A stretch of DNA of 42,978 nucleotides from Halorubrum kocurii JCM 14978. Its GTDB lineage: Archaea; Halobacteriota; Halobacteria; Halobacteriales; Haloferacaceae. The translations under genes and the position numbers were made by a program. The DNA is taken from positions 1 to 42,978 of the forward strand of contig NZ_AOJH01000051.1 of assembly GCF_000337355.1 (NCBI RefSeq). The letters are read 5' to 3'. Each line of letters opens with the position of its first letter. The stretch's first letter is position 1. The notes below the pieces were generated by a model that saw nothing but the letters and a program-made list of their open reading frames with translations, was not told where the DNA came from and did no database searches. Shown one piece after another: positions 13,161 to 37,717 of this stretch.

Positions 13161-13231
13161 GGGACCGTGGGGTAGTGGTATCCTATGCGGATGGGGTCCG
13201 TATGACCTGAGTTCGACTCTCAGCGGTCCCA
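13161..13231 (+). tRNA. tRNA-Pro(GGG)
   Basis: Acceptor GGGACCG/CGGTCCC with discriminator A, anticodon stem TGCGG/CCGTA around loop ATGGGGT (anticodon GGG), T-loop AGTTCGACTCT. No intron and no encoded CCA. It lies at the boundary between the core block and the membrane-protein block. Confidence 0.95.
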
Positions 13232-13313
13232 TAAATATTCTGACTGGTTCTCATCAGTGACGGGCGGATCGTCGATCGCCCGCCGAACCCGCCGACACGT
13301 CGCGGCCGCGTTC

Positions 13314-14234
13314 TCAAAACAGCACGTACGCGACGCCGTATGCGATCGCCGCGAGGGTCACTGTCGCCGTTCCGGTAACAACGGCCCCCAACGCGTCGAC
13401 CGGTTTCGTGAACCGATGGGGCGTGCTCCCGACACAGACCAGGCTCAGCGCGAGGAGGCTGAACACGAACACCGACGCGTCGTGAATAGTCGGCGATGGG
13501 ATAACGAAGACCGCGCCGGAGTATCCCGTCCCGATCCCCGCCCGCGGGTGAACTAATCGACGGATTGAGACGTCGCGTGAGCGAGCGTACGTCCATATCC
13601 CCAGCCACACGGTTCCGATCTCGATGAGGAACGCCGCGAGCAGGTGCAGCGTCGGGTCGGGGTGTAGCGTGAGCCGCCCACTCACCAGCGTCGCGTCGAA
13701 CGGATAGAAAAACAGCGGCGGGGTGCCGGTGACCAAGTCCCCGAACGGATGCGAGAGCAACCCGAGCGCCGCGACAGCCAGCACCGCTGGCGCGGAGACC
13801 CCGTGTCGGCGGGCGAACACCGCGACCGCCACGCCAGCGATAGCGTACACTGCTGTGACCCCCGCGACGGCACTGCCACCGCTCACACCAGCAACGGCGA
13901 TCAGCCCGGCGACGACACCCGCACCGGTAACGCGTCCGATTCGTCGATTCGCGGCCAACAACGCGCCGCCGGTCGCGAGGACGCCGCCGAAGAGGAGCGA
14001 GTGCGTCGGGCCTCGATGAATGACGTTCGCCGTGGTCCAGAACACCTCCGGGTCGATCGGTTGAGCGGACTGGAGGGCCAACCCGACCGGCGCGTACACG
14101 ATATCAACGTCGGGCACGAGCGCGAACAAGGCGGCGAACGCGCCGAGTTGGAGCGCTCTGTCTCGGCCGACACCGAGACGTCTCGCGGCCAGCGTTCCGA
14201 CGGCGAACGCCGCGAGACTGTGCCCGACGAACAT
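13314..14234 (-). CDS. YdjM/DUF457-type membrane-bound metal-dependent hydrolase-like protein
   Basis: A 306-aa multispanning membrane protein. MFVGHSLAAFAVGTLAARRL opens with the family's first His. PDVDIVYAP and VIHRGPTHSLLFGGVLATGG carry the Asp pair and the HRGxTHS motif that define the YdjM/DUF457 group, thought to hold metal at the membrane. LSHPFGDLVTGTPPLFFYPF is the third His motif (H-x5-D). The C-terminus is another run of hydrophobic helices. The actual substrate is unknown. The ATG at 14234 has a TATA-like box about 25 nt upstream. It is convergent with tRNA-Pro. Confidence 0.9.
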   Translation of the reverse strand: MFVGHSLAAFAVGTLAARRLGVGRDRALQLGAFAALFALVPDVDIVYAPVGLALQSAQPIDPEVFWTTANVIHRGPTHSLLFGGVLATGGALLAANRRIGRVTGAGVVAGLIAVAGVSGGSAVAGVTAVYAIAGVAVAVFARRHGVSAPAVLAVAALGLLSHPFGDLVTGTPPLFFYPFDATLVSGRLTLHPDPTLHLLAAFLIEIGTVWLGIWTYARSRDVSIRRLVHPRAGIGTGYSGAVFVIPSPTIHDASVFVFSLLALSLVCVGSTPHRFTKPVDALGAVVTGTATVTLAAIAYGVAYVLF

Positions 14235-14248
14235 ACCGGTAGTTTCCC

Positions 14249-14264
14249 TTTAAAAGTAATAAGC
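14249..14264 (-). promoter_or_regulatory. TATA-like region of the YdjM/DUF457 gene
   Basis: On the minus strand CTTATTACTTTTAAA lies 15-30 nt upstream of the ATG at 14234; the CTTATTAC part is at about -25, consistent with leaderless initiation. Confidence 0.5.
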
Positions 14265-14389
14265 ATCTCGCGTCGTGCGAGCCCCCGAACGGCACGACCG
14301 GTCCGTTCGCGGTTTCGAGCGTCGCGTGCGGGACAGACCAGACGGATGCGGTTCGTCGTCACCGTCGGTGCCCGTCCCGCAGTTGCGAC

Positions 14390-15139
14390 TCACTCCTCGC
14401 CGCCGTCGGGTTGGCCGATCGGAGCCGGGTCGGTGTCCGGCGAACGCCCCGGAAGCCAGTCACCGATGTTGGTGGCGACGTAGTCGCGGCCACCGAGACC
14501 GAACGCGATACCGATCGCGAGGGCGATGCCCGCGGCCAGCCCGTAAGCCGCCGCCTGTGCAAACGTGTTGAGGATCTGGACGTCGACACCCATCGTGCCC
14601 AGTCCGATAACGAGCGCGATGAAGTACAAGAACACGCGCATCCCATCGGCGAATACACCGGTGTAGTCGGTCTCTGTGACCGTCTTCGTGTTCGCGACGA
14701 TCTCGGCGAGGAAGTCGGCGAGAACGAACCCGATGACGACGATGAGCGTCCCCGCGACGAACGCCGGCAGATACGAGACCGCGGTCGCCATCCACTCGGA
14801 CAGGAGTTCGACCGCGAGGGCATCGGCCGCCGCGAGTATCGCTAGCGCGTACACGAAGTAGGCCGCCGAGCGACCGATGCTCCGGGATATCGCCTTTTCA
14901 GTCCCGCCTAGCACACCGCCGAGCGGCGTTTTCATAACGAGCCGATCGATCTGCGTCCGATCGGCGACGCGCCGAACGCCGCCGCCGGCGAGACGGCCGA
15001 CGACCCAGCCGATGAGCAGGATGACTACTGCGCCGGCGAGCTGCGGCAGGAAGCTGATCACTCCCGCGACGGCCTCTTGGAGGTAGTCGGGAACGCCCGG
15101 TGCACTGACCTGCAGGACGGCGCTGTCTATGAATCCCAT
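14390..15139 (-). CDS. MscS-type TM-helix repeat membrane protein
   Basis: A 249-aa protein with about five hydrophobic segments. It contains two copies of the conserved MscS-like TM helix pattern: LPQLAGAVVILLIGWVVGRL near residues 30-50 and LPAFVAGTLIVVIGFVLADF near 123-142. Both have the LPxxxAxxxIxxIGxxxxxx form. It lacks the MscS beta domain and ends in an acidic, Pro/Gly-rich tail (GRSPDTDPAPIGQPDGGEE). Its role may be in tension sensing or as an accessory of a channel, but this is unproven. It is a monocistronic minus-strand gene 155 nt upstream of the YdjM gene. Confidence 0.82.
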   Translation of the reverse strand: MGFIDSAVLQVSAPGVPDYLQEAVAGVISFLPQLAGAVVILLIGWVVGRLAGGGVRRVADRTQIDRLVMKTPLGGVLGGTEKAISRSIGRSAAYFVYALAILAAADALAVELLSEWMATAVSYLPAFVAGTLIVVIGFVLADFLAEIVANTKTVTETDYTGVFADGMRVFLYFIALVIGLGTMGVDVQILNTFAQAAAYGLAAGIALAIGIAFGLGGRDYVATNIGDWLPGRSPDTDPAPIGQPDGGEE

Positions 15140-15158
15140 GGTTCAGAAGAGAGCGCAT

Positions 15159-15179
15159 ATCAATATTGTTATTTATAAC
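15159..15179 (-). promoter_or_regulatory. AT-rich promoter of the TM-helix protein gene
   Basis: CAATATTG (centre 26 nt before the start) and GTTATTTATAAC (about 35 nt) are both AT-rich and partly palindromic. Either could be the TATA box for the gene starting at 15139. Confidence 0.5.
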
Positions 15180-15513
15180 GATACTTACCACACGCTTCGG
15201 CAGCGGTCGGTTAAGATGGCGTGAGATGCGGGCGCACGTGGCGACGACGTGGACGCGGCGAGCGGTACGGGGCAAGCGGTCTCCGAAGCGCGTCGACCAC
15301 GGCGAGCGCGGACACGTCGACGGCCGACCCAGCAGCGCGCGGCGCGGACGCCCTGCAGTCAGTCGCCGTTCTGACATAAGCCGAACGGGAGACGAGTCTG
15401 CGGCCCCGGCGCTGTGCCGGCCGGCAGTATCGGCCCGACAGCGAGCCGAACGAGCCGGGATTCGAGACCGAACGCGACCCCGCGGGACGCGCGGCGAATC
15501 CGCGCTCTCTCGC
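15180..15513. other. intergenic stretch without a supported gene
   Basis: About 330 nt of GC-rich sequence between divergent genes. Open frames on both strands are arginine-rich shadows without start context or recognisable domains. Nothing functional is seen except the repeat that follows. Confidence 0.5.
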
Positions 15514-15582
15514 CGTTCATTTCACAGTAATTAACTAATACCGCTCGCAGCGTTCATTTCACAGTAATTAACTAATACCGCT
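15514..15582 (+). repeat. tandem 32-bp promoter-like direct repeat
   Basis: Two identical 32-bp copies (15514-15545 and 15551-15582) separated by 5 bp, beginning CGTTCATTTCACAG and containing AATTAACTAATACCG. The AT-rich core of the second copy is about 26 nt before the ATG at 15600, the exact place for a leaderless TATA box. The first copy lies 37 bp further upstream. The duplication may give two promoters or two activator sites. Confidence 0.9.
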
Positions 15583-15599
15583 AGCGGGCCATTACGAGT

Positions 15600-16103
15600 A
15601 TGAGTTCACTTGTTGTGCTCAGATTCAGCGACATAGGCGGTGCAGAGGCGATGCGCGACAGAATGTACGAGCTGCAAAAACGGGAACTGGTCAAACTCGA
15701 GGACGCCGCGGTGGTCGTCCGTAACGAGAGCGGACGCGCGAAGGTCAAACAGGCCCACAGTCTCGTCGGCGCGGGAGCGCTCGGCGGCGCCTTCTGGGGC
15801 ATGTTGATCGGGCTGTTGTTCTTCGCTCCGTGGCTCGGCCTGTTGGCCGGCACCACCATGGGCGCGGTGACCGGAAAGCTGGGCGATATCGGCATTGACG
15901 ACGACTTCATCAAGGAGACGCGGGACGCGATCGAGCCCGGGAACTCCGCGCTGTTCCTGCTGGCCCGCGAAGGCAACACCGAGCGAATCAAACAGGAGCT
16001 GTCGGACTTCGAGCACGCGTTCGAGATCATCGAGACCAACCTCAGCCCCGACGACGAGGACAATCTGCGCGCGACGTTCGCCGCCGAGGAAGTCACCGGG
16101 TAG
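15600..16103 (+). CDS. DUF1269 membrane protein
   Basis: A 167-aa DUF1269 protein. The N-terminal 50 residues form a ferredoxin-like domain (SSLVVLRFSDIGGAEAMRDR, then LEDAAVVVRNESGRAKVKQ). Two glycine-rich hydrophobic segments follow, SLVGAGALGGAFWGMLIGLL and a second ending GAVTGKLGDIGI. The C-terminal domain includes DDFIKETRDAIEPGNSALFLL, the family's most conserved stretch. Function is not established; members often accompany stress or transport genes. It begins immediately after the tandem promoter repeat, probably leaderless, and is followed 99 nt later by the DUF389 gene. Confidence 0.9.
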   Translation: MSSLVVLRFSDIGGAEAMRDRMYELQKRELVKLEDAAVVVRNESGRAKVKQAHSLVGAGALGGAFWGMLIGLLFFAPWLGLLAGTTMGAVTGKLGDIGIDDDFIKETRDAIEPGNSALFLLAREGNTERIKQELSDFEHAFEIIETNLSPDDEDNLRATFAAEEVTG

Positions 16104-16202
16104 GCGCGTGACTGCCGCCGCCGGGGAACGCCGGGTGGCACGAGCGGGGACCGCACGCACGGACTGTCTCGAACGCTCAGACGACCAGCCACCCAGTACC
16201 AC

Positions 16203-17543
16203 ATGCGACTCGTTCAGGTCCTGATCCCTCGGGGAACCCGTTCGGCCGTCCTCGACACGCTCGACGGTCACGGTGTCGACTACGCCGTGTTCGACGAGGT
16301 CGGTCGCGGCGGCTTCGAGGCGATGGTCCAGTTTCCCGTCCCACCGAGCGGAGTGGAACCGGTATTGGACGACCTGATCGAGGCCGGCGTCCGGGAAGAC
16401 GCGTACACCATCGTCCTCTCGACAGAGACCGTCGTCTCACAGCGGCTGTCCGCGCTCGTCGAACGGTTTCCCGGTCTCCGCATCTCGCGCGAAGAGCTGT
16501 ACACACGGGCAGCGGAACTCGCGCCGGCGAACTCGACCTTCTTCGCATTTCTCCTCTTAAGCACCGTTATCGCGACGACGGGACTGCTCCTCGACTCCGC
16601 GGCGACGATCATCGGCGCAATGGTCGTCGCGCCGCTGATGGGACCCGCCGTCTCCGCCTCGGTCGGAACGATTCTCGACGACCGTAGGATGACCCGACGC
16701 GGGATCAGACTGCAGGTCGTCGGACTCGTCGGCGCCATCGTGACAGCGGCGGTCATGGGCTGGCTCCTCCAGCAGACCGTTCTCATTCCGCCGGGGCTCG
16801 ACATCCGGAGCATCCCCCAGATCGCCGAGCGGACGAGTCCGAACTTCCTGTCGCTCTTCCTCGCCCTCGGGTCGGGGATCGCCGGGGCGCTCAGCATAAT
16901 GCGCGGCTCCGGATCGACCCTCGTCGGCGTGGCCATCGCCGTCGCGCTCGTTCCCCCCGCCGCGACCTCCGGCCTCGGAATCGCGTTCGGCTTGCCGGGT
17001 GTCGCTATCGCGGGCGCCGTGCTCGTCGTCGTAAACTTGCTCGCGATCAACGTCTCCGCGCTGGTCCTGTTCTGGGGGGCGGGGTTCAAACCACTCGACG
17101 CAGGCGCGCTTGAAGGGGTTCGCGCCTCGCTCGTCTCGCGTATCGTCGTGTTTGTGGCGGCCATCGCAGTGCTTTCCATCGTCCTCGGTGCGGTCACTTG
17201 GACGACGTTTCAGACGCAGAGCTTCGAGGAGGAGGCCCGGAGTGAACTCCAGCAACAGTTCGAGGAGGCTGACATCGAGGGGGTCGAGCTCGTTTCGGTG
17301 ACCGTCGACTACGAGCCGATCGATCTGCTCCTCGGAAGCGAACCGCGGGTGAACGTCCTCGTCGGTGTTCCGCGCGATCGCGAGGTGCCGCCCGACCTCG
17401 CTCAGCGCTGGGACGACCAGTTGACTGCGGAGTTCGACCGCGATGTCATCGTTCGCGTCGGATTTATCGAGGCACAGGTCTCCGACGGAAAAACGTGGGA
17501 ACGACAGCCCGTGCGGCTAACTGCTCCGACACCGTCCCCATGA
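16203..17543 (+). CDS. DUF389 (TIGR00341) membrane protein
   Basis: A 446-aa protein of the DUF389 group. The N-terminal roughly 110 residues form a soluble domain (MRLVQVLIPRGTRSAVLDTL and onward). The membrane part contains LLLDSAATIIGAMVVAPLMG, the family's key motif, then about six hydrophobic helices (for example TSGLGIAFGLPGVAIAGAVL). The C-terminal extension after about residue 340 is soluble and acidic; archaeal members often carry it. Function is unknown. Its stop overlaps the start of the MFS gene (ATGA), so the two are coupled. No AT-rich promoter is visible upstream, suggesting cotranscription with DUF1269. Confidence 0.9.
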   Translation: MRLVQVLIPRGTRSAVLDTLDGHGVDYAVFDEVGRGGFEAMVQFPVPPSGVEPVLDDLIEAGVREDAYTIVLSTETVVSQRLSALVERFPGLRISREELYTRAAELAPANSTFFAFLLLSTVIATTGLLLDSAATIIGAMVVAPLMGPAVSASVGTILDDRRMTRRGIRLQVVGLVGAIVTAAVMGWLLQQTVLIPPGLDIRSIPQIAERTSPNFLSLFLALGSGIAGALSIMRGSGSTLVGVAIAVALVPPAATSGLGIAFGLPGVAIAGAVLVVVNLLAINVSALVLFWGAGFKPLDAGALEGVRASLVSRIVVFVAAIAVLSIVLGAVTWTTFQTQSFEEEARSELQQQFEEADIEGVELVSVTVDYEPIDLLLGSEPRVNVLVGVPRDREVPPDLAQRWDDQLTAEFDRDVIVRVGFIEAQVSDGKTWERQPVRLTAPTPSP

Positions 17544-19198
17544 GCTCTGAAGCGAGCGACCCACGGGACGAAGACGACTCGCCGAGACGGCATCAGAGCG
17601 CCGTATCGTACTGGGGACCGGCCATCGCGGTGAGTCTCTCGATGTTCATCGCCGTCATCGACTCGACGCTGATGAACGTCGCCGTCCCCGCGATCGTCTC
17701 GGACCTCGACACCACCGTCCCCGTCGTCCAGGGCGCGATCGCGGTCTATTCGCTCGTGATGGCGGCGCTGATGCTCCCCGGCAGTAAGCTCCCGTCGATC
17801 TACGGCGTCCGGCGGCTGATGCAAGTCACGCTCGTCGTGTACGCCGCCGGGACGCTGCTGGCGGCCGTCAGTTGGAGCCCCACAGTGCTGTACGTCGGCT
17901 GGTCCGTCATCGAGGGCGCCGCGTCGGCCGTCCTCATGCCCCTCACCTTCACCGTGCTCGTGGTCACCTACGAGGGAACGGACCGGGCGAAGGCCCTCGG
18001 GCTGCTCGCGGGCGTGAACGCGACGGGCGCTGCGATCGGGCCGATACTCGGCGGAGCCCTCACGACCTTCGCCAGCTGGCGGTGGGGTTTCGCGCTCGAG
18101 GCTGTCGTCGTCGTGGTGGCGCTCGTCTTCGTTCGCTACGTGACCGCGGCTCCGCTGACGCAGGAGCGTGGCTCCCTCGATCTCGGCGGGACCGCCCTCT
18201 CGGTGGTCGGCGCGACGTCGCTCGTCGTCGGCTTCCTCCTGGCCGGCAAGTTCGGGTGGCTGGTCGCGACGCGGCCGTTCGTCGCCTTCGGCGTCCCGTT
18301 CACCCCCTTCGGCACGTCGCCGGCGGTCTGGCTGATCGGGCTGGGGTTGCTCGCGTTCGCCGCGTTCGCCCAGTACGAACTCCGGTTGGAACGGCTCGGC
18401 GGCTCACCGCTCGTCCCGATTCGAATTCTGACGAACCGCGCGTTCACCGCGGGCTCGCTCACGTTCGGCGCCCGGTCGCTCGTCATGGCCGGGTTCATTT
18501 TCGTCGTCCCGGTGTACCTCCAATCCGGGCTCGGGTACACCGCGTTCGGGGCCGGGGTCGCCATGCTCCCGTTCTCGATCGGGACGCTGCTCGTGTCGAC
18601 GTTCACGACCGGCTGGCGCAACTACGTCTCGCCGAAGACGCTCATCCAAGCCGGCGTCGTGCTCATGGGTCTCGGGCTCCTGCTGCTGTTCGAGCGAACA
18701 GCGCCTGGTCAGACCGCCGCGAGCATGGCGGTACCGATGGCCGTCATCGGCGTCGGCGTCGGACTGCTCATGCCGCAGCTCGTCAACACGACGTTGTCGG
18801 CCGTCCCCCAGACGGATTCCTCGGAGGCGTCCGGCGTGATGAACGCGGTCGGAATGCTCGGCTACGCGCTGGGGACGGCCGTCGTGGGGGCCTTCCTGCT
18901 CGGACAGTTCTACCGGGGAGTGATAGACGGCGTGCTCCGGGCGGGCGACGTCACGGTGTCGGTGGCGCAGCGCGACGACCTCGCACGCGCACTGCAACAG
19001 GCCGCCGAGACGGCGACCGCGTCGACCCAACAGGCGTTCGTGGCCGGGCTCCCCCCCGCCGAGCGGGAACTGCTCGAAGGCATCTTCGAGGCCGCCATGA
19101 TCGGTGCACACCGGGGGACGTTGCTGCTCCTCGTCATCCTCACGCTGCTCACGCTCGCGGCTTCGGCGTTCATTCCGCGTGACTCAGGTCGGCCCTGA
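17540..19198 (+). CDS. MFS drug/proton antiporter-like (DHA2, 14-TM)
   Basis: A 552-aa major-facilitator transporter. After a charged 25-residue N-terminus, AVSLSMFIAVIDSTLMNVAV is TM1 with the D(S/T)T-xxNVAxP motif of the DHA2 (EmrB/QacA) family. Motif C-like GVNATGAAIGPILGGAL lies around residue 160. About 14 hydrophobic helices are present. The normal motif A (GxLADrxGrk) is only weakly kept as LPSIYGVRRLM. It probably exports organic compounds or lipids using the ion gradient; the substrate is unknown. The ATG at 17540 overlaps the DUF389 stop, and the frame upstream belongs to the DUF389 region. Confidence 0.9.
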   Translation: MSSEASDPRDEDDSPRRHQSAVSYWGPAIAVSLSMFIAVIDSTLMNVAVPAIVSDLDTTVPVVQGAIAVYSLVMAALMLPGSKLPSIYGVRRLMQVTLVVYAAGTLLAAVSWSPTVLYVGWSVIEGAASAVLMPLTFTVLVVTYEGTDRAKALGLLAGVNATGAAIGPILGGALTTFASWRWGFALEAVVVVVALVFVRYVTAAPLTQERGSLDLGGTALSVVGATSLVVGFLLAGKFGWLVATRPFVAFGVPFTPFGTSPAVWLIGLGLLAFAAFAQYELRLERLGGSPLVPIRILTNRAFTAGSLTFGARSLVMAGFIFVVPVYLQSGLGYTAFGAGVAMLPFSIGTLLVSTFTTGWRNYVSPKTLIQAGVVLMGLGLLLLFERTAPGQTAASMAVPMAVIGVGVGLLMPQLVNTTLSAVPQTDSSEASGVMNAVGMLGYALGTAVVGAFLLGQFYRGVIDGVLRAGDVTVSVAQRDDLARALQQAAETATASTQQAFVAGLPPAERELLEGIFEAAMIGAHRGTLLLLVILTLLTLAASAFIPRDSGRP

Positions 19199-19329
19199 CC
19201 GGTTCGGCCATCCTGCTCATTAAAAACGGCAGGACGGTCGACGCGCGATCGCGTCAGGAGCGGCTGGCTGACCTGCCGAAAATACAGAGAGGCCGAAACC
19301 ACATTTGGGACCCTGCCCGACCACGAGCG

Positions 19330-19998
19330 TCAGCGGTTCGCCGACCTCGACTCGAGCCGGTCTCCCAACTGATCGGAGATGCCGGTCAGGTACGTCGTCC
19401 CGAAGACCGCGACGAGCAGGCCACCGATGCTGTTGTACATGAGGTCCAGAACGGTGTCGTCGAGCCCGTACTGTGTGAGCACCTGGGGGATGCCGAACAG
19501 GTCCGCGCCCACGGCGATGTAGAACTCGAGGAGCTCCCAGAGCACGCCGAAGGCCAACACGAAGATCAGCAGGTACGCGAACATGAACTTCGGGCCCAGC
19601 TGGATGTACTCGGTGTGTTCTTGCAGGGCTCGCGTCGCCGCGTAGCCCGACGCGACGACGATCGACGACGACAGCGCGTGGGTCAGATGGTCCCACCACC
19701 ACGTCGCACCGTACAGCGTCTCGAAGTCGAGTCCGGGGAGCGGCACCGTTCCGAGCGCGTGCAGGAACACCGCCATCGTGATCCAGATGACGAGCCACAC
19801 GTCCATGACGATCTGGTATCGACGCTCCAGGAGTGCGGGTAACTGCGTGATGAAGAGCCCGACCGCGGCGTCGAACGCGATCACCACGTTGCCGGAGTAC
19901 AACCCGATACCGAGAATGGCGACTAACAGGACCTGGAGGACTCTGACGATTCCCACCTGTGCGCCGTGCGGGACGTGCATCCGGGTCCGAATGCTCAT
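19330..19998 (-). CDS. YjdF/DUF2238-like membrane protein
   Basis: A 222-aa, roughly six-TM protein. WWWDHLTHALSSSIVVASGY has the D-H-x-x-H pattern. GVLWELLEFYIAVGADLFGI has the W-E-x-x-E/F pattern, and DTVLDLMYNSIGGLLVAVFG has the DxxxDxxxNxxGG pattern. Together these match the YjdF/DUF2238 family, whose function is unknown. After TM2 comes the motif ITQLPALLERR. The ATG at 19998 overlaps the upstream gene's stop by 4 nt. It is the last gene of the HdeD operon and is convergent with the MFS gene, 131 nt away. Confidence 0.8.
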   Translation of the reverse strand: MSIRTRMHVPHGAQVGIVRVLQVLLVAILGIGLYSGNVVIAFDAAVGLFITQLPALLERRYQIVMDVWLVIWITMAVFLHALGTVPLPGLDFETLYGATWWWDHLTHALSSSIVVASGYAATRALQEHTEYIQLGPKFMFAYLLIFVLAFGVLWELLEFYIAVGADLFGIPQVLTQYGLDDTVLDLMYNSIGGLLVAVFGTTYLTGISDQLGDRLESRSANR

Positions 19999-20600
19999 TG
20001 CGCACTCACCCCTTCTCCGCCGACGCGGTCGATGTTCGCTTTGAGCTGCCGCTGGAAGTACAGCCGGAAGACGCCGCCGGCGACGAACGCCGCCAGTGCC
20101 GCGGCGTTGAAAACCATCATCAGCTCCTCGTTGGTTTCGACGAAGGGCGTGTCGAAGTAGTACGCCGAACCCGCCGCCAGGATCGCCCAGAGGCCGGCGG
20201 TCGCCAGCGTGGCGAACACGACGAAGAACACGGCGAAGTTCGGCGTCATCCGCACCGACCCCACCGATTGGAACGCGACGACCACGAGCATCCCCAACGC
20301 GGCGATACTGAGACCGGCGACGACATCGGTGAAGAAGCTGACCCCAAGCGCTCCTATCGAGAGGGGGATTGCACAGATCAGTAAGAGCGGCCACGGAACC
20401 GTTCGCGTCCACGTTCTCTCGACGAGCGCCGGGGTGACGGCGACGAACGCCGCCACGACAGCGAGCGCCATCCGGGCGAGCAGGAGCTCGAGAAACGCGC
20501 TTATCGCGACGATGACGAGCGCGCCGACGAGCACCCACGTGATGGCCGCGTTGATCCGCGTGTCCTTGAGAAACCACTCCTCGGGTAGTTGCTGACTCAT
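19995..20600 (-). CDS. multispanning membrane protein, possible diverged relative of the next gene
   Basis: A 201-aa protein with about six hydrophobic segments and no recognised family. The start MSQQLPEEWFLKDTRINAAI at 20600 was preferred because the frame upstream is not membrane-like. The region AFVAVTPALVERTWTRTVPW followed by ALG lines up with FITQLPALLERR...DVW...HALG in the adjacent 222-aa YjdF-like protein. The two may be diverged tandem homologues. The copy here lacks the WWWDHLTH and WELLEF motifs. It ends FQRQLKANIDRVGGEGVSAQ. It lies 52 nt after HdeD and overlaps the next gene by 4 nt. Confidence 0.75.
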   Translation of the reverse strand: MSQQLPEEWFLKDTRINAAITWVLVGALVIVAISAFLELLLARMALAVVAAFVAVTPALVERTWTRTVPWPLLLICAIPLSIGALGVSFFTDVVAGLSIAALGMLVVVAFQSVGSVRMTPNFAVFFVVFATLATAGLWAILAAGSAYYFDTPFVETNEELMMVFNAAALAAFVAGGVFRLYFQRQLKANIDRVGGEGVSAQ

Positions 20601-20652
20601 GCTTGGGGTTGCTCCTCGAAGCGTTCGATGTGGACCGTACTGATCGACGACT

Positions 20653-21195
20653 TCATCCCTGACTCCCCCGGGCGGTGCGTTGTGCGAATGAGCCACGGCT
20701 CCCCCGTCCGAGGAGGATCACCGAGACACCGGTCACGACCAGATTGATCCCGAAGAGCACGCCGATGGCCCAGACCGCGTCGCTCGGGAACCCGAGCCAG
20801 AGGAGACCGCCGAGGAGGAAGGAGATGCTTCCGCTGACGAGCAGCCACCCCGCTCCGGGTTGTCCGCGGCTTCGTATCCCCCACGCGATCTCGGCGATGC
20901 CGTCGGCGAGGAAGAAGCCGACGGCGAGCAGGGTCAACGTCAACAGTCCAAAGACCGGGTTCAGTATGAATACGATGCCGGCGCCTCCGTAGAGGACGGC
21001 CAGTATCACCTGTCCGAGTTTGTGCTTGAACCCTCCCGCTGAGAAGGCGTGGAACCCGTGTACGGTCGCGCCGGCGACGAGGACTACGCCGAGTAAAACT
21101 GACAGCGAACGTCCCGTGACAAACGGGAATACCATCGCGAGGGCTCCGAGTACTGCGAGGATCGCTCCGGCTACCGCAGCGGTGCGGCTCCCCAT
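20653..21195 (-). CDS. HdeD-family (DUF308) membrane protein
   Basis: A 180-aa membrane protein with about six TM helices arranged as DUF308 repeats: AAVAGAILAVLGALAMVFPF, GVVLVAGATVHGFHAF, LAVLYGGAGIVFILNPVFGL and FLLGGLLWLGFP. The PxxxG, G-x-H and NP motifs are those of HdeD, an acid-stress membrane protein in enterobacteria; the role in archaea is not known. The start MGSRTAAVAG at 21195 fits a TATA-like element 28 nt upstream, and the in-frame Met codons further upstream lie in AT-rich promoter sequence. It is the first gene of a three-gene minus-strand operon. Confidence 0.88.
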   Translation of the reverse strand: MGSRTAAVAGAILAVLGALAMVFPFVTGRSLSVLLGVVLVAGATVHGFHAFSAGGFKHKLGQVILAVLYGGAGIVFILNPVFGLLTLTLLAVGFFLADGIAEIAWGIRSRGQPGAGWLLVSGSISFLLGGLLWLGFPSDAVWAIGVLFGINLVVTGVSVILLGRGSRGSFAQRTARGSQG

Positions 21196-21205
21196 GGGAT
21201 CCGGT

Positions 21206-21246
21206 TCGGTTCTAACCGTATTAGTTGAACTCACGTGATAGATTAC
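21206..21246 (-). promoter_or_regulatory. HdeD operon promoter with element shared with DUF1269
   Basis: On the minus strand AACTAATACGG is centred about 28 nt before the ATG at 21195, and TATCACGTGAGTTC lies just upstream of it. The combined sequence closely resembles the repeated DUF1269 promoter (TTTCACAGTAATT followed by AACTAATACCG). Confidence 0.6.
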
Positions 21247-21535
21247 ACCATCTAACATAAAAAACACTAAACATCGTTCACTCCGGCCCGTTCCTCACTA
21301 GAGTGATCTTTATTTCGGTAAGTGATCTGAATCGAACATTTTTGATCGAACGTTGCACCAGTCCGCAGGATGCGGCAGGGGAGGTCAATTTTCGATCGAA
21401 TCACGCGCTATTAATTTCTGGTAACTGACTCCTCTCTGACTGGAATAACACGGAGATACCCCACGCCGGTCGCGAGCCGCTTTGAGTCGCGCCGTTCCCC
21501 GCACAAGACCTCCAATGTGGCCGGTCAACGGGCAA
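21247..21535. other. divergent intergenic region between HdeD and MscS genes
   Basis: No gene is supported here. It holds AGTGATCT twice (21302-21309 and 21321-21328), three ATCGAA sites (21331, 21345 and 21395) and several AT-rich blocks. These may be regulator sites for the flanking divergent genes. The rest is unremarkable. Confidence 0.5.
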
Positions 21536-21550
21536 ATTACAGAGTGTAAT
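21536..21550 (+). promoter_or_regulatory. palindrome ATTACA-GAG-TGTAAT upstream of mscS
   Basis: A perfect 6-bp inverted repeat with 3-bp spacer, ending 21 nt before the MscS ATG. It sits at the expected TATA position for a leaderless transcript, so a protein bound there would block transcription. Confidence 0.5.
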
Positions 21551-21571
21551 CGACACCACCAGAACAGAGTG

Positions 21572-22453
21572 ATGGTCCTGATACAACAAGTGGTCTCAAT
21601 CGATTTCCAGCAGTACGTTCCAGCGCTCACGAACCTCATCGCGACGACGCTGCTATTCGTCATCGTGTTTCTCGTCGTGTACCGACTCGGGCGATCGGTC
21701 GTCACCCGAGCGGTCGAGACTAGTCTCAAACGCCGGAACTTCGACGAGACGCTCGTCGGATTCGCAGCGAGTATGACCGTCGGGGTGATGACCGTCTTCG
21801 CCCTCGCGTTGGCTGCAGCGATTGCCGGATTCGGGAGCGTTCTGGCCGCGTTCGCCACGTTGGGCGGTGCACTCACGCTCGCGGTCGGCTTCGCCGCACA
21901 GGACCTCATCGCGAACTTCGTCGCCGGCGTGTTCGTCATCAAGGACAAGACGTTCACGGTCGGCGATTGGATCGAGTGGGACGGGAACGACGGCGTGGTC
22001 CGCGAGATCCACCTGCGGGTAACGAAACTCGACACGCTCGATAATCAACTAATGACGGTGCCGAACAGCGATCTCGCGAACGCGACAGTGATCAACAACG
22101 TGGCGAACGACCGACGCCGGGTGTCGGTCGGGTTCGGCGTCGAATACGACGAAGACATCGCCCGAGCACGGAACGCCATCGTGGAGGAGGGCGCGCGTAT
22201 TGACGGCGTCCTCGCCGTTCCCGAACCGACGGCCCCTCTCGTGGAACTGGGGGACTCGGCGGTCAGCCTCTCGGGACGCGTCTGGATCGACCCCTCGGAA
22301 AGCAGCTACGCGGCGGTCCGGTCGCAGTTCGTCGAAGCTGTCAAGCGCCGCTTCGACGCCGAGGGCATCGACTTCCCGTACCACAACACGGAGCTCTCGG
22401 GTGGGCTCGAGGTCACAAGCGTCGCTGCCGTAGAGGGGAGTCCCGGGGACTGA
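21572..22453 (+). CDS. small-conductance mechanosensitive channel (MscS family)
   Basis: A 293-aa full MscS channel, which opens under membrane tension to release solutes on osmotic downshock. Three TM helices lie at about 15-37, 60-85 and 88-108. TM3 is the pore helix, LAAFATLGGALTLAVGFAAQ, followed by DLIANFVAGVFVIKDKTFTV and GDWIEWDGNDGVVREIHLR, the signature at the start of the beta domain. VPNSDLANATVINN follows, and a C-terminal alpha/beta domain ends near FPYHNTELSGGL. The start MVLIQQVVSIDFQQYVP at 21572 was chosen over the upstream in-frame ATG at 21482 because the intervening 30 residues are not conserved and contain the probable promoter palindrome. Confidence 0.93.
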   Translation: MVLIQQVVSIDFQQYVPALTNLIATTLLFVIVFLVVYRLGRSVVTRAVETSLKRRNFDETLVGFAASMTVGVMTVFALALAAAIAGFGSVLAAFATLGGALTLAVGFAAQDLIANFVAGVFVIKDKTFTVGDWIEWDGNDGVVREIHLRVTKLDTLDNQLMTVPNSDLANATVINNVANDRRRVSVGFGVEYDEDIARARNAIVEEGARIDGVLAVPEPTAPLVELGDSAVSLSGRVWIDPSESSYAAVRSQFVEAVKRRFDAEGIDFPYHNTELSGGLEVTSVAAVEGSPGD

Positions 22454-22907
22454 CAGAGCGCCGCCCCCGGTCGGGGCTCCCGGTCGCATCGCCTGTGACC
22501 ATCGGGGTCCGCGGGTCGCTCTTCGAGAGTACGCTCAGCACATTTGGTGCGCGGGGTGTTCGGTCCGGTGCGGTCGCGCCTCTCACGGAGGCCAGCGAGG
22601 AACGCAGCCGCCGGATCGGTTCGACGTCGTTGGAACGCCCCTAAACTTTGAATTTCGCGTTTCGCCGACCGTACACCCGGACGCGTCAGTGACTCACGAC
22701 TGACGTCGTGGGCTTCCTCCCACTTCCTCTGTGAACTCGGACGACAGCGTTCATCGAGGTGGTCGCCGCCCGCTCACAAAATTGTATGTTAGTCGCCTCT
22801 ATCGGCTTAACAATTGATTTTGGTTGATCATAAACACAAAGAGTGACAGATCTGTGACCGAGTATTAAATATCTCGTGCCGATTCTCTCATGGGTCGATT
22901 TCGAACC
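22454..22907. other. long intergenic region with possible IS605-type end
   Basis: No gene is supported. It contains consecutive hairpins at 22695-22723 (see the separate feature). From about 22780 it becomes AT-rich with TATA-like runs, including GAGTATTAAATATCTC near 22859. Confidence 0.5.
22695..22723 (+). mobile_element. possible remnant of an IS200/IS605 (TnpB-type) right end
   Basis: CACGAC-TGAC-GTCGTG followed at once by GTGGG-CTTCCT-CCCAC forms two successive hairpins with the GTCGTGGGCTTCCTCC string. Similar CACGGC...GCCGTGGG hairpins terminate IS605/IS1341 elements in archaea. No tnpA or tnpB remains nearby, so this would be only an isolated end. It could also be a chance terminator-like structure. 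Confidence 0.35.
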
Positions 22908-22924
22908 AAGATTTAAATAATCTT
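22908..22924 (+). promoter_or_regulatory. palindromic TATA/operator of the DUF7344 gene
   Basis: AAGATT-TAAAT-AATCTT is a perfect 6-bp inverted repeat enclosing the TATA-like core. It is centred about 25 nt before the ATG at 22941, consistent with a leaderless transcript that a bound regulator could switch off. Confidence 0.6.
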
Positions 22925-22940
22925 AAACGAAAGGTAACTC

Positions 22941-23579
22941 ATGTCACTGAATAGTAATGACTCATCTAACAGTCGAACGGCAGATCGGCCTGTTACCGAG
23001 TTCGAACACGGACATCTCTCCGATCTCGGCGCCGTTGGCAGGGCAGTCCCGGCGGACGGGACGGAACTGAACACCAGCCAGCTGTTCGATCTGCTGAAGA
23101 ACCGTCGTCGTCGCTCGGTCACCAGATTCCTGTATGAAAACGACGGGAACGCGGTGTTGAGCGATCTCGCTGAGCACATTGCGGCAGAGGAGAACGATAT
23201 CACCGTCCAACAGCTCTCCTCGACAGAGCGGAAGCGCGTCTACATCGCGCTGTACCAGTGTCACCTTCCGAAGATGGCGTCGCTCGGAGTGATTGACTAC
23301 GACAAGAACCGCGGGACGGTCGAGCTACGTGCGTCCGCCTCGCGACTGCTGCAATATATAAATACCGACGAGGACGGGCGAGAAGGGAACAGGACGCGAG
23401 GAGGGAACGGCACCCCCGACCGTGCGTGGGTTGCTCCCGCGATTGCGGCTTTCGTTTTTCTCACGGTCAGTGTCGGAGCGCTCGGTATCGGCCCCCTCGC
23501 CGCGGCGTCGGCGACGACATGGACGCTTCTCGGCCTCGTCGGAGTCGTCGCGATCATCGGCTGCCAGTACGTGACCTGA
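22941..23579 (+). CDS. DUF7344-type winged-helix protein with membrane anchor
   Basis: A 212-aa haloarchaeal protein. After 45 polar residues, NTSQLFDLLKNRRRRSVTRF to YDKNRGTVEL (about 46-135) forms a winged-helix-like domain of the DUF7344 type. VLSDLAEHIAAEE looks like the start of the HTH, and RKRVYIALYQCHLPKMASLG is the recognition/wing part. WVAPAIAAFVFLTVSVGALG and WTLLGLVGVVAIIGCQYV near the C-terminus are two TM helices. It is thus probably a membrane-tethered regulator. Its target is unknown; a palindrome over its own TATA suggests autoregulation. Codon usage looks less GC-biased than neighbouring core genes. Confidence 0.82.
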   Translation: MSLNSNDSSNSRTADRPVTEFEHGHLSDLGAVGRAVPADGTELNTSQLFDLLKNRRRRSVTRFLYENDGNAVLSDLAEHIAAEENDITVQQLSSTERKRVYIALYQCHLPKMASLGVIDYDKNRGTVELRASASRLLQYINTDEDGREGNRTRGGNGTPDRAWVAPAIAAFVFLTVSVGALGIGPLAAASATTWTLLGLVGVVAIIGCQYVT

Positions 23580-23752
23580 CCGGTTCGAACCCCCTAGCCC
23601 CGTTGCCGTCACGCCGGCCGAGCGCGACGGAGTCGCGTCCGGTCCACACGCCGGTCGCGCTCGTCGAAGAGACGGCAGATCGAGCGCTTCAGAGTTTCTC
23701 CCGAACGTCTATGAGGAAACAGCGTTAGGTGCGTTCGGCCCATAGGGGAAAT

Positions 23753-24853
23753 ATGTCCGTCCGCTCTCGATCGGTCGCGGTTGCCGCGCTCGCCCTGTTC
23801 GCGACGCTCGTCGCGCGGCCGGTCGCGGCCCACGTCGACTACGTCACCGAAGACACGGGAGACCCGCTCGACGCGGTGGCGTTCACCGTCGAAGTGCTGT
23901 CGGACCCGGTGAACGCCGCGGTGTTCACGGGCGGCGGACTCGCGACGGTCGCCGGGCTCGCCGTGTACCTCTGGGTGCGGCCGACGATCACCGACGTGGT
24001 CGTCCTCCGCGAGAAGCTCGTCGGGTACGGCGACCTCGTCCCGTGGATGCTGCGGCTCGCCATCGGGCTGCCCCTCGTCGGCGCCGGGTTTCAGGGGTAC
24101 CTCTTCGCGCCGACGCTCGCGTTCGACCCTGGTGCGAGCCCGTTCCTGCGGGTGTTGTTCATCGGGCTCGGCTTCTTCGTCCTCTTCGGGCTCGCGACGC
24201 GGATCGCCTCGGCGATCGGCCTGTTGACGTACGCCTGGGTCCTCCTCGCGGTCGACGCGACCGCCGTCATCGCGATGGAGTACGTCCCGGTGCTGATCGC
24301 CCTGCTGATCCTCGGCGGCGGGCGTCCGAGCGCCGACGACATGCTGCTCGCGGTCGCGAGCACGCCGGGGTCGTACTACGGTCGGATCGACCCCGTCCAC
24401 CACCTGAAGTCGTTCCTCGACGCGACCACGGCCCCGCTGCGCCGATACGTCCCGACGGTCCTCCGCGTTGGGATGGGCGTCACGTTCGTCTACCTCGGGC
24501 TCATCGAGAAGCTCGCTGACCCCGGCAGGGCGTTGCTCGTCGTCGAGAAGTACGACCTCACGTCGGTCGTCCCCGTCGACCCGGGGCTGTGGGTCGTCGG
24601 CGCCGGCGTGACGGAGATCGCGGTCGGGCTGGCGCTCATCGCCGGGTTCTTCACCCGCGGCGCGGCCGCGCTCTCGTTCGTGCTGTTCACCACGACGCTG
24701 TTCGGCCTCCCTGACGACCCCGTCCTCGCTCACGTCGCGCTGTTCGGCATGGCGTCGGCCGTCTTCACGCTCGGGTCCGGCCCGCTTTCGTTCGACCGCC
24801 TGGTCGGCCGTCCCGCGCTCGACGACGACGAGTCGGTCATCGCGGCCGACTGA
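23753..24853 (+). CDS. DoxX-family membrane protein
   Basis: A 366-aa integral membrane protein. A signal-like N-terminus (SVAVAALALFATLVARPVAA) precedes a short lumenal part. It then contains two DoxX-like four-helix modules: MLRLAIGLPLVGAGFQGYLF onward, and VLRVGMGVTFVYLGLIEKLA onward with GLWVVGAGVTEIAVGLALIA. DoxX-type proteins are linked to thiosulfate:quinone oxidoreductase subunits or to redox and membrane stress, but no partner enzyme is next to it. The start MSVRSRSVAV at 23753 is preferred because it gives a clean signal peptide; an ATG 8 codons upstream in frame is possible. Confidence 0.85.
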   Translation: MSVRSRSVAVAALALFATLVARPVAAHVDYVTEDTGDPLDAVAFTVEVLSDPVNAAVFTGGGLATVAGLAVYLWVRPTITDVVVLREKLVGYGDLVPWMLRLAIGLPLVGAGFQGYLFAPTLAFDPGASPFLRVLFIGLGFFVLFGLATRIASAIGLLTYAWVLLAVDATAVIAMEYVPVLIALLILGGGRPSADDMLLAVASTPGSYYGRIDPVHHLKSFLDATTAPLRRYVPTVLRVGMGVTFVYLGLIEKLADPGRALLVVEKYDLTSVVPVDPGLWVVGAGVTEIAVGLALIAGFFTRGAAALSFVLFTTTLFGLPDDPVLAHVALFGMASAVFTLGSGPLSFDRLVGRPALDDDESVIAAD

Positions 24854-24935: not shown

Positions 24936-26432
24936 ATGGCCGACTGGACGGAAAAGTACCGCCCGAGCACGCTCTCGGAGGTCCGCGGCAACGACAAGGC
25001 CCGCGACGCGTTCGCGGAGTGGGCGCGCTCGTGGGACGACCATCACGAGGCCGTCGTCCTCCACGGGAGCCCGGGCGTCGGGAAGACGAGCGCGGCCCAC
25101 GCGCTCGCGAACGACATGGGGTGGGAGACGGTCGAGCTGAACGCCTCCGACCAGCGCACCGCCGACGTCATCGAGCGGTTCGCGGGGCGGGCCGCGCGCA
25201 ACGCCACCCTCGGGGGGAGCGCGGCGGGCGGCGGCGCGACCGGCGGCGACACGGCCTCTCGCCAGCTCGTGATCTTAGACGAGGCCGACAACATCCACGG
25301 CAACTACGACCGCGGCGGCGCCTCCGCCATCACGAAGCTGGTCAAGGAGTCGGGCCAGCCCATCGTCCTCATCGCCAACGACTACTACGACATGGCGCGG
25401 GGGCTCCGCAACGCCACCCAGGAGATCGAGTTCCGCGACGTCTCGGCGCGCTCCATCGTCCCGGTCCTCCGCGACGTCTGCCGCAAGGAGGGGATCGAGT
25501 TCGAGTCGGACGCGCTGGAGCGGATCGCGGAGCGCAACCGTGGCGACTTACGCGGCGCGATCAACGACCTGCAGGCCGCCACGGAGGGCCGTGACTCGGT
25601 CGCGGTCGAGGACGTGGTCACCGGTGACCGTGACAAGGCGCTCGGGCTGTTCCCGTTCCTCGACGCGGTCCTCAAAGAGGAGTCCGCTGAGGAGGCGCTG
25701 CAGTCGGCGTACGCGGTCGACGAGACGCCGGACGACCTGACGAAGTGGATCGAGAACAACGTCCTCGACGTGTACGAGCCGATGGAGGCGGTCCGCGCGT
25801 ACGACTTCCTCGCGAACGCCGACGTGTGGCTCGGACGCGTTCGAGCCACGCAGAACTACTCCTACTGGCGCTACGCCACCGACAACGCCGCGGCCGGGGT
25901 CGCCGCCGCGCGCGACGGGGAGAAGGGCGGGTGGACGCGCTACGGCCGCCCGCAGTTCTGGAGCTCCTCCGACGCGACCGCCGACGAGGTCGTCGGACGG
26001 ATCGCCGCCGAGAGCGGGTGTAGCGTCGCGACGGCGCGCCGCGAGGTGCTCCCGTTCCTGGAGGCGGTCACGCACCACTGCAAGCCCCGCGAGCTGACGG
26101 TCGCGATGGCGGCCGCCTACGACCTCGACGCGGCGGGCGTCGCGTTCGTCACCGGCTCCGGCGAGTCGACGAACAAGGTGGCGTCGGTCGTCGAGGACGC
26201 GCAGGCGCTCCGCGAGGAGCGGATGGAGGACCACGCCGAGGGCGCGTTCGCCGGCGGCCGCCGCGCGGCGGACGAGCCCGGTGCGTCGGCGGCTGACGAC
26301 GACACCGGCGGCGATGCCGACACCGGCGAAGCGACGGCCGGCGCCGAGCAGGACGGCGGAGACGACGACAACGGAGGCGAGGAAGACGACACCGACGACG
26401 ACGGACAGGCGGGACTGAGCGACTTCTTTTAA
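24936..26432 (+). CDS. rfcL: replication factor C large subunit
   Basis: A 498-aa AAA+ clamp-loader subunit that loads PCNA onto primed DNA together with the small subunit. It begins ADWTEKYRPSTLSEVRGND. Walker A is GSPGVGKTS at residues 44-52, Walker B is LVILDEADN, and further conserved stretches are IVLIANDYYDMARGLRN and ERNRGDLRGAINDLQAA. It ends in an acidic Gly/Asp-rich tail followed by QAGLSDFF, a perfect PIP box (QxxLxxFF) for PCNA binding. A Gly/Ala-rich insertion (around GGSAAGGGATGGD) follows the sensor of the P-loop domain. No intein is present. It is convergent with the histidine kinase gene 39 nt away. Confidence 0.96.
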   Translation: MADWTEKYRPSTLSEVRGNDKARDAFAEWARSWDDHHEAVVLHGSPGVGKTSAAHALANDMGWETVELNASDQRTADVIERFAGRAARNATLGGSAAGGGATGGDTASRQLVILDEADNIHGNYDRGGASAITKLVKESGQPIVLIANDYYDMARGLRNATQEIEFRDVSARSIVPVLRDVCRKEGIEFESDALERIAERNRGDLRGAINDLQAATEGRDSVAVEDVVTGDRDKALGLFPFLDAVLKEESAEEALQSAYAVDETPDDLTKWIENNVLDVYEPMEAVRAYDFLANADVWLGRVRATQNYSYWRYATDNAAAGVAAARDGEKGGWTRYGRPQFWSSSDATADEVVGRIAAESGCSVATARREVLPFLEAVTHHCKPRELTVAMAAAYDLDAAGVAFVTGSGESTNKVASVVEDAQALREERMEDHAEGAFAGGRRAADEPGASAADDDTGGDADTGEATAGAEQDGGDDDNGGEEDDTDDDGQAGLSDFF

Positions 26433-36322: not shown

Positions 36323-37717
36323 ATGACCAACAAGCCAAACTACGCAGAATACGGGCGACGTCGACTCATGAAGGGCGCGGGACTCGCGGGGATCGCGGGG
36401 CTGGCCGGCTGTATCGGAACCGGCGATCCCGGCGGGAGCGACGGGAGTGACGGAAGCGACGGCGACGACGGGAGCGATGGCAGCGACGGCAGCGACGGCG
36501 ACGACGGCAGCGACGGCGGTAGCGGCATGGCGTCGGAGATCAACGTGTGGGGGTGGGACGTCGCCGCGCGGGCGCTGATGATCACCGCCGAGGAGTACGA
36601 GTCCGAGAACGACGCGACGGTCGCCGTCGAGGAGTTCGGTCGGTCCGCGATGAAGGACCGGCTCCAGACGAACCTGCTCTCGGGCTCCGGCGCGCCGGCG
36701 GTCTCCATGTTGGAGTCGGTCGACGGCCCCTCGTTCATCGACACGGGCTCCGTCGCGCCGCTCACCGACGAGATCGAGGAGGCGGGGGTCCAGGACGACT
36801 TCGTCTCCGGGAAGTGGGAGGCGCTCACCGTCGACGGCGACATCTACGCGCTCCCGTGGGACACCGGTCCGACGGCGGTGTACTACCGGCGGTCCATCTA
36901 CGAGGAACACGGCCTTGACCCCGAAGGCATCGAGACGTGGGCGGACTTCATCGAGGAGGGCCAGAAGCTGCCCGACGACGTGGACATGCTCAACCTCCCC
37001 GAGGGTGACCTCTCCGGCGTCTGGCGGTACCAGTTCCGCCAGCTGTCCGGCGAGCCCTTCCTCGAGAGCGGCGAGGTGAACATCCACAACGAGAAGTCGC
37101 TCCGCGTGGCTCAGAATATCAAGGAGATATACGACGCCGACATCGCGGCGAACATCGAGGGCTGGACCTCGGCGTGGTTCAGCGCCTACGGCGACGGCAC
37201 CGTCGCCTCGCTCCCTTCGGCCGCGTGGATGGAGGGGACCCTGCGCGCCGAGCTTCCCGACACCTCTGGCGACTGGGGCGTCTTCAAGATCCCCGCGCTG
37301 GAGTCGGGCGGCCCGCGGGCGTCGAACTGGGGCGGCTCCAACCTCATGATCGCGGACCAGGTCTCCGACGACAAGAAGGAGCGGGGCTGGGACTACATGG
37401 AGTACTCGCTGGCGACCGAGGAGATGCAGCTGGCGATGTACGACGAGTACGGACTCTTCCCGGCGCTGGAGACCACCTACGAGGACCCGGTGTTCGACGA
37501 GGAGCTTGACTTCTACGACGGACAGCCCGCGCGGGCGCTCTTCGCCGAGGTCGCACAGGAGGCCCCCGGCTACCGGTTCACCGAGGACACGCCCGAGGTG
37601 TCGCAGGCCATCGAGACCGAGCTCCAGCGGATGATCAACGGCGAACAGTCCCCGGAGGAGGCCGTGCAGGCGGCCGCGGAGACGGTCGCCGAGAACACCG
37701 ATCGGGACCTCGCGTAA
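36323..37717 (+). CDS. sugar ABC transporter substrate-binding lipoprotein (Tat)
   Basis: A 464-aa extracellular binding protein of family 1. MTNKPNYAEYGRRRLMKGAG has twin arginines, and GIAGLAGCIG is a lipobox, so Tat export and lipid anchoring are likely. Residues about 35-68 are a Gly/Ser/Asp linker made of repeated GSDG units. The mature domain has INVWGWDVAARALMITAEEY, LPWDTGPTAVYYRRSIYEEH, SLPSAAWMEGTLRAELPDTS and GGSNLMIADQVSDDKKERGW. Context points to galactose, galactonate or a related sugar acid. It leads an operon with two permeases, an ATPase and catabolic genes. Confidence 0.93.
   Translation: MTNKPNYAEYGRRRLMKGAGLAGIAGLAGCIGTGDPGGSDGSDGSDGDDGSDGSDGSDGDDGSDGGSGMASEINVWGWDVAARALMITAEEYESENDATVAVEEFGRSAMKDRLQTNLLSGSGAPAVSMLESVDGPSFIDTGSVAPLTDEIEEAGVQDDFVSGKWEALTVDGDIYALPWDTGPTAVYYRRSIYEEHGLDPEGIETWADFIEEGQKLPDDVDMLNLPEGDLSGVWRYQFRQLSGEPFLESGEVNIHNEKSLRVAQNIKEIYDADIAANIEGWTSAWFSAYGDGTVASLPSAAWMEGTLRAELPDTSGDWGVFKIPALESGGPRASNWGGSNLMIADQVSDDKKERGWDYMEYSLATEEMQLAMYDEYGLFPALETTYEDPVFDEELDFYDGQPARALFAEVAQEAPGYRFTEDTPEVSQAIETELQRMINGEQSPEEAVQAAAETVAENTDRDLA
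36431..36525 (+). repeat. GSDG codon repeat in the binding-protein linker
   Basis: A low-complexity DNA stretch of repeated GGGAGCGACGG and GACGGCAGCGACGG units encoding the Gly-Ser-Asp linker. It is prone to copy-number change. Confidence 0.75.

Follow-up and report, generated by a model that had tools for sequence, protein, structure and literature searches.

The closest described bacterial counterpart of the locus examined here is the tLST, a horizontally spread island that includes an HdeD-family membrane protein and has a stress-protection theme. The tLST relies on sHsp20, ClpK, PscA/B (YfdX) and KefB, and its criterion is heat or chlorine resistance. Within the genus Halorubrum, the genomic islands and homeocassettes of Halorubrum ezzemoulense (PMC11078007) occupy slots of variable content between core genes, in many cases close to tRNAs; mechanosensitive channels and HdeD are not mentioned in that work. 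In a model of the haloarchaeal osmo-response (PMC4230888), MscS acts as a release valve on osmotic downshock, although the model covers general MscS use and a mobile cassette is not its subject. Finally, for the Wok family of the lipocone superfamily, which partly corresponds to Pfam DUF2238, an action on lipid head groups has been proposed, and genes of this family are seen beside calcineurin-like phosphoesterases (PMC12419801).

The window analysed here is a stretch of 42,978 nucleotides from Halorubrum kocurii JCM 14978 (contig NZ_AOJH01000051.1), in which a block of eleven genes (g1 to g11) lies between tRNA-Pro and rfcL. Nine of these, g1-g9, form a unit that is inserted whole at different chromosome places in three salt-loving archaea. 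As in the tLST, this unit is horizontally spread and includes an HdeD-type protein, and its genes suggest a stress-protection theme. However, none of the genes on which the tLST relies is among the family matches of g1-g10, and the archaeal unit is known here from its genes, in contrast to the resistance by which a tLST is recognised. With the core tLST genes missing, classification of the unit as a tLST was rejected. No chaperones, proteases or UspA were found in g1-g9. Like the H. ezzemoulense islands, the unit occupies a variable slot near a tRNA, but it moves among three unlinked sites. No literature linking any two of DUF389, DUF1269 and HdeD was found, the sole DUF389 match being a prefix match to DUF3892.

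Gene content of the block

Open reading frames of all eleven block genes are present (13.3-24.9 kb), and by a simple hydropathy count ten of the eleven products have at least two TM segments, the DUF1269 protein g3 having one. The preliminary description of the block as eleven mostly membrane proteins is thus borne out. In forty neighbouring-type comparison loci, membrane genes make up 14.9% and the longest membrane-gene run is three; relative to these loci, the probability of such a concentration is ~5e-8 per position and ~2e-4 over a genome. G+C content is 57-69% inside the block versus mostly 64-75% outside.

At the left end, the YdjM-type membrane protein g1 (13314-14234, minus strand; annotated as metal-dependent hydrolase family) and the membrane protein g2 (14390-15139, minus) are transcribed leftward. 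The DUF1269 protein g3 (15600-16103, plus), the DUF389/TIGR00341 membrane protein g4 (16203-17543, plus) and g5, an MFS exporter of the DHA2 (EmrB/QacA) type (17540-19198, plus), are transcribed rightward. Leftward again are g6, a distant DUF2238 protein of putative Wok lipocone type (19330-19998, minus), g7, a predicted six-helix membrane protein (19995-20600, minus), and the HdeD-type (DUF308) membrane protein g8 (20653-21195, minus). The MscS channel g9 (21515-22453, plus; alternative start at 21572) is rightward, and it is followed by g10, a DUF7344 winged-helix protein with two TM segments (22941-23579, plus), by the DoxX-type protein g11 (23753-24853, plus) and by rfcL, which starts at 24936. 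The directions of g1-g9 indicate two divergent promoter regions, g2/g3 and g8/g9. Additionally, the start of g5 overlaps the stop of g4, and the stop of g7 overlaps the start of g6, in both cases as ATGA, which implies translational coupling.

Pfam matches among the block genes comprise YdjM, MS_channel_1st_1, DUF1269, DUF389, MFS_1, DUF308 (HdeD), the MscS beta and C-terminal domains, DUF7344 and DoxX. Of the two MscS-type proteins initially proposed, g9 is a complete MscS, with beta and C-terminal domains after the TM helices. For g2, only MS_channel_1st_1 helix repeats were matched, representing the conserved TM helix of MscS-type proteins; because the MscS beta domain is lacking, the block holds just one true MscS. 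The g8 product matches DUF308, and its HdeD-family match falls below the cut-off of that family.

Insertion at the tRNA-Pro/rfcL slot and at two other sites

In three relatives (G012, G018 and G029), the match to the window ends at or just past the 3' end of tRNA-Pro(GGG) (13161-13231, plus), at 13232-13254, and restarts at 23621-23689, ahead of the DoxX gene g11. The stretch 13256-23620 is absent from the same site in these genomes, so that approximately 10.4 kb has been inserted and g11 belongs to the flank. The order truB-tRNA-Pro-(DoxX)-rfcL is nearly unbroken in relatives with an empty site, and in several others (including G003, G031, G004 and G006) rfcL follows almost directly after tRNA-Pro. 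Therefore g11, which is retained in relatives without the unit, is host flank. The DUF7344 regulator g10 is inserted but lies outside the mobile unit.

The content of this slot varies between Halorubrum species. In four of them (G005, G008, G016 and G020), tyrosine recombinase genes lie beside rfcL or DoxX and the 15-bp tRNA end CTCAGCGGTCCCATA is repeated; Pfam confirmed three of the recombinases, and the remaining one, that of G016, is near-identical to that of G008. These recombinases and repeated tRNA ends indicate that the slot is a real integration hotspot. The tRNA, suggested earlier as an island boundary and here the left border of the insertion, is thus a true integrase target in relatives, where integrase and second att site are both found. 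In the window itself, a second att site (a second copy of the tRNA-Pro 3' end) was sought and, in agreement with the preliminary description, not found; no integrase is among the family matches of g1-g10, and no recombination genes are left in the window.

Side observations concern this slot and its rfcL edge. Loci L005, L008, L014 and L018 contain tyrosine-recombinase elements at the tRNA-Pro 3' end upstream of rfcL, and among the loci checked, two (L005 and L018) have large Eco57I-type methylase genes; L030 also has one in this slot. The 5' end of rfcL in G021 contains a 7.6-kb element (L019:7431-7502 and 15123) that encodes a phage-type integrase (L019:13730-14716) and is flanked by the 17-bp duplication GACTGGACGGAGCAGTA. 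Thus, rfcL itself is also an integration target.

The unit is found elsewhere in two other species. In the complete chromosome of another Halorubrum species (G026), g1-g9 are collinear with the window (13316-22475) at 89.4% DNA identity over 9,241 bp, and the common DNA stops at 22475. This copy lies between genes for deoxyhypusine synthase and an LLM oxidoreductase, ~345 kb from the rfcL of that genome; in four other genomes (G016, G023, G181 and G149) the gap between the same two genes is only 0.4-0.6 kb. A decayed copy in H. coriense, whose outer ends are those of the window unit, retains g1 and g6-g9 in addition to the end of g5 and a 55-bp scar of g3. It occupies a third site, where the flanks are ~5.7 kb apart versus only 0.2 kb in G016 and G149. 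All three insertion sites are therefore empty in relatives, and g10 is absent from both the G026 and the H. coriense copies. Of 52 Halorubrum genomes, two have the island-type g4. Between the window and G026, protein identity is 92-98% for most of the unit (g8, 82%; g9, 86%; g1, 78%), compared with 88% for rfcL.

Among the hallmarks of genomic islands, the block shows absence from the same site in close relatives and occurrence elsewhere as a unit more similar than core genes; an integrase of its own with two att sites is not seen in the window. The idea of an island beside tRNA-Pro is therefore largely right, with its borders revised to the nine genes g1-g9, g10 and g11 being outside. A chance accumulation, in which unrelated membrane genes without joint function were gathered singly in the hotspot, might account for the differing slot content between species and for the many gene orders and subsets in other genera. 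It is nevertheless very unlikely, and the second and third sites refute it for the most part, given the nine genes in the same order in G026 and the decayed copy with the same outer ends in H. coriense; moreover, g3, g4, g5, g8 and g9 repeatedly re-associate with island-type g6/g7.

Likeness to G026 is uneven along the unit, being highest in the g2-g3 spacer (97.6%) and its neighbours and lowest in g1 and g8. This pattern is read as mosaic recombination, and selection on the spacer is possible. The spacer (15140-15599) is more similar between the two species than most coding parts of the unit, and may be a recombination tract or a functional element. Separately, several Halorubrum species share an intergenic repeat of 250-320 bp close to the deoxyhypusine synthase/LLM locus (L175, ~13394-13717, reverse complement; L196-L198).

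Relatives in other genera and on megaplasmids

Related sets in other genera and on megaplasmids share 60-88% protein identity with the unit. For instance, Halorubellus salinus carries g3, g4, g5, g9, g6, g7 and g8 inside 7 kb at 59-88% identity; its g4 (88%) and g3 (84%) are closer to the window than rfcL of other families is (50-67%). On megaplasmids of Haloarcula, Halobaculum and Haloferax, DUF1269 adjoins DUF389, variously accompanied by g6/g7, HdeD, an MFS transporter or MscS, and a Salinigranum megaplasmid has both a DUF389 gene and g6. Outside Halorubrum the set is thus reshuffled. The comparison of gene neighbourhoods proposed in the preliminary description accordingly gave two answers: independent scattering of the genes is contradicted at the level of the unit, which is absent from its site in relatives and present elsewhere as one collinear stretch, whereas in distant genera the set is modular.

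Core-type g6/g7 and DUF389 occur in nearly all haloarchaea, and the genome of the window also has one core-type copy of each. The unit therefore represents extra, divergent copies of core membrane families, as shown for g4 and g6/g7, and probably gives its host a spare set of functions for membrane upkeep. Within 10 kb of g6/g7, one or more of the partners g2-g5, g8 and g9 were found at 17 of 29 island-type loci versus 1 of 41 core-type loci (p = 9e-8, a value that is too small because the loci counted are related, as are other p-values from these counts). The two types were separated at 44% identity, a cut chosen after seeing the data, and at 12 of the 29 island-type loci no partner lies within that distance of 10 kb. 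Membership of the set was also considered for universal stress proteins and ABC transporters, and rejected, as they are not enriched relative to core-type loci. A virus origin was likewise rejected after a pattern scan of viral contigs, in which no g4 relative was found.

In the plasmid clusters, these genes also have sulfatases, AI-2E transporters, P-type ATPases and symporters as neighbours. The unit might accordingly be the remnant of a larger megaplasmid region integrated by recombination, with a mixed cargo (transport, sulfatase metabolism and metal handling) and not one homeostasis set. This origin seems unlikely, however, considering that all nine genes kept in both G026 and the window are of membrane or stress type and that no catabolic gene has been retained.

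Putative functions and regulation

On balance, the block is best explained as a horizontally moved, nine-gene accessory cassette (g1-g9) inserted at the tRNA-Pro hotspot, with a presumed role in membrane homeostasis. The cassette was inserted between tRNA-Pro and the DoxX/rfcL flank and retains no recombination genes. The earlier label of an envelope-stress system is a plausible inference from the family names.

The lipid part of this explanation centres on g6. Its first assignment as YjdF-like reduces to a distant DUF2238 relationship: the window protein alone scores E = 0.19, below the Pfam cut-off, and 26 of 29 family members match (best, 1.3e-5). Seven residues (D103, H104, H107, E155, E158, D181 and D185) are invariant in the 29 members, within the motifs WWWDHxTH, WExxE and DxxxD, and this polar motif is set in hydrophobic helices. 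Distant DUF2238 similarity, the polar motif and calcineurin-like phosphoesterases recurring near its relatives make g6 a candidate Wok lipocone, although the single window protein scores weakly. The g6 model (pLDDT 73.5) and the g7 model had no significant PDB match, and no significant solved relatives of g4, g6 or g7 were found by sequence. No description of g7, an obligate-looking partner of g6, was found in the literature.

Calcineurin-like phosphoesterase genes lie near g6/g7 at 11 of 29 island-type loci versus 0 of 41 core-type loci, and a sulfatase with its activating enzyme at 7 of 29 versus 0 of 41. At 22 of 41 core-type loci, a YdjM-type gene lies no more than 3 kb from g6/g7, in support of a connection of g1 with this pair. 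Together with the assignments of g2, g5, g8 and g9, the g6 motif, the DUF2238 matches and the phosphoesterase and YdjM neighbours suggest a putative role in membrane-lipid and membrane-tension homeostasis. It was also observed that AI-2E family transporters are near g6/g7 at 10 of 29 island-type loci (L044, L046, L047 and others) and at none of the 41 core-type loci.

In the favoured cassette reading, g6 as a lipocone-type membrane enzyme, its coupled partner g7 and the YdjM-type g1 would alter lipid head groups, while g9, and perhaps g2, would let out solutes as membrane tension rises, which for g9 agrees with the osmo-response model. The products of g3, g4 and g8 may be stress-type membrane proteins, g5 may export toxic compounds, and the divergent promoter regions g2/g3 and g8/g9 would drive the cassette. 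Should this hold, membrane families that are mostly uncharacterised (DUF1269, DUF389, the DUF2238 relative and g7) would be identified as a transferable set that travels together in haloarchaea, and one knockout could test what they do jointly. The cassette would then be the archaeal equivalent of transmissible stress islands in bacteria, in kind though not by descent, and would offer a clue to how haloarchaea use gene transfer to vary their membrane lipids.

Since g5 matches DHA2 drug exporters and its overlap with the g4 stop implies co-translation, the unit could instead serve chiefly for efflux or for resistance to toxic compounds, with g5 at its centre and the other proteins as membrane helpers. 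Yet related clusters that keep g3-g4 or g6-g7 often lack g5, and H. coriense lost most of g5 while keeping g6-g9, which makes such a role for the unit quite improbable.

Shared regulatory motifs had been reported for the block, and the 9-mer AACTAATAC is indeed found exactly, twice upstream of g3 and once upstream of g8 (21218-21226, minus; 23-31 bp ahead of the g8 start codon), but g7 and g9 lack it. The two copies at g3 lie one in each of two tandem 37-bp repeats (15513-15586, plus), of which G026 has four. At ~-22 to -31 from the g3 and g8 starts, AACTAATAC is promoter-like, in the position where the TATA box of a leaderless transcript would be. Among g3 relatives, 4 of 15 have at least 7 of the 9 bases at the proximal motif position versus a background of 3%; no similar motif was found ahead of g7 and g9 relatives. 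As a general promoter signature AACTAATAC was rejected because g7 and g9 lack it, and it was kept as a weak hint; the shared promoter-like 9-mer thus lends weak support to co-regulation of the unit genes.

A bolder form of the cassette reading is doubtful: a haloarchaeal transmissible membrane-tolerance system in which g6/g7, as a lipocone-type enzyme pair, would respond to stress by remodelling the head groups of phospholipids or sulfolipids, alongside tension-gated channels and stress membrane proteins. As a selectable module, such a system would spread among chromosomes and megaplasmids, and the promoter repeat number (two or four) would tune expression. Elsewhere in the window, a G+C-rich 9-bp (36-bp) tandem repeat of ~9 copies is present at 36433-36517.
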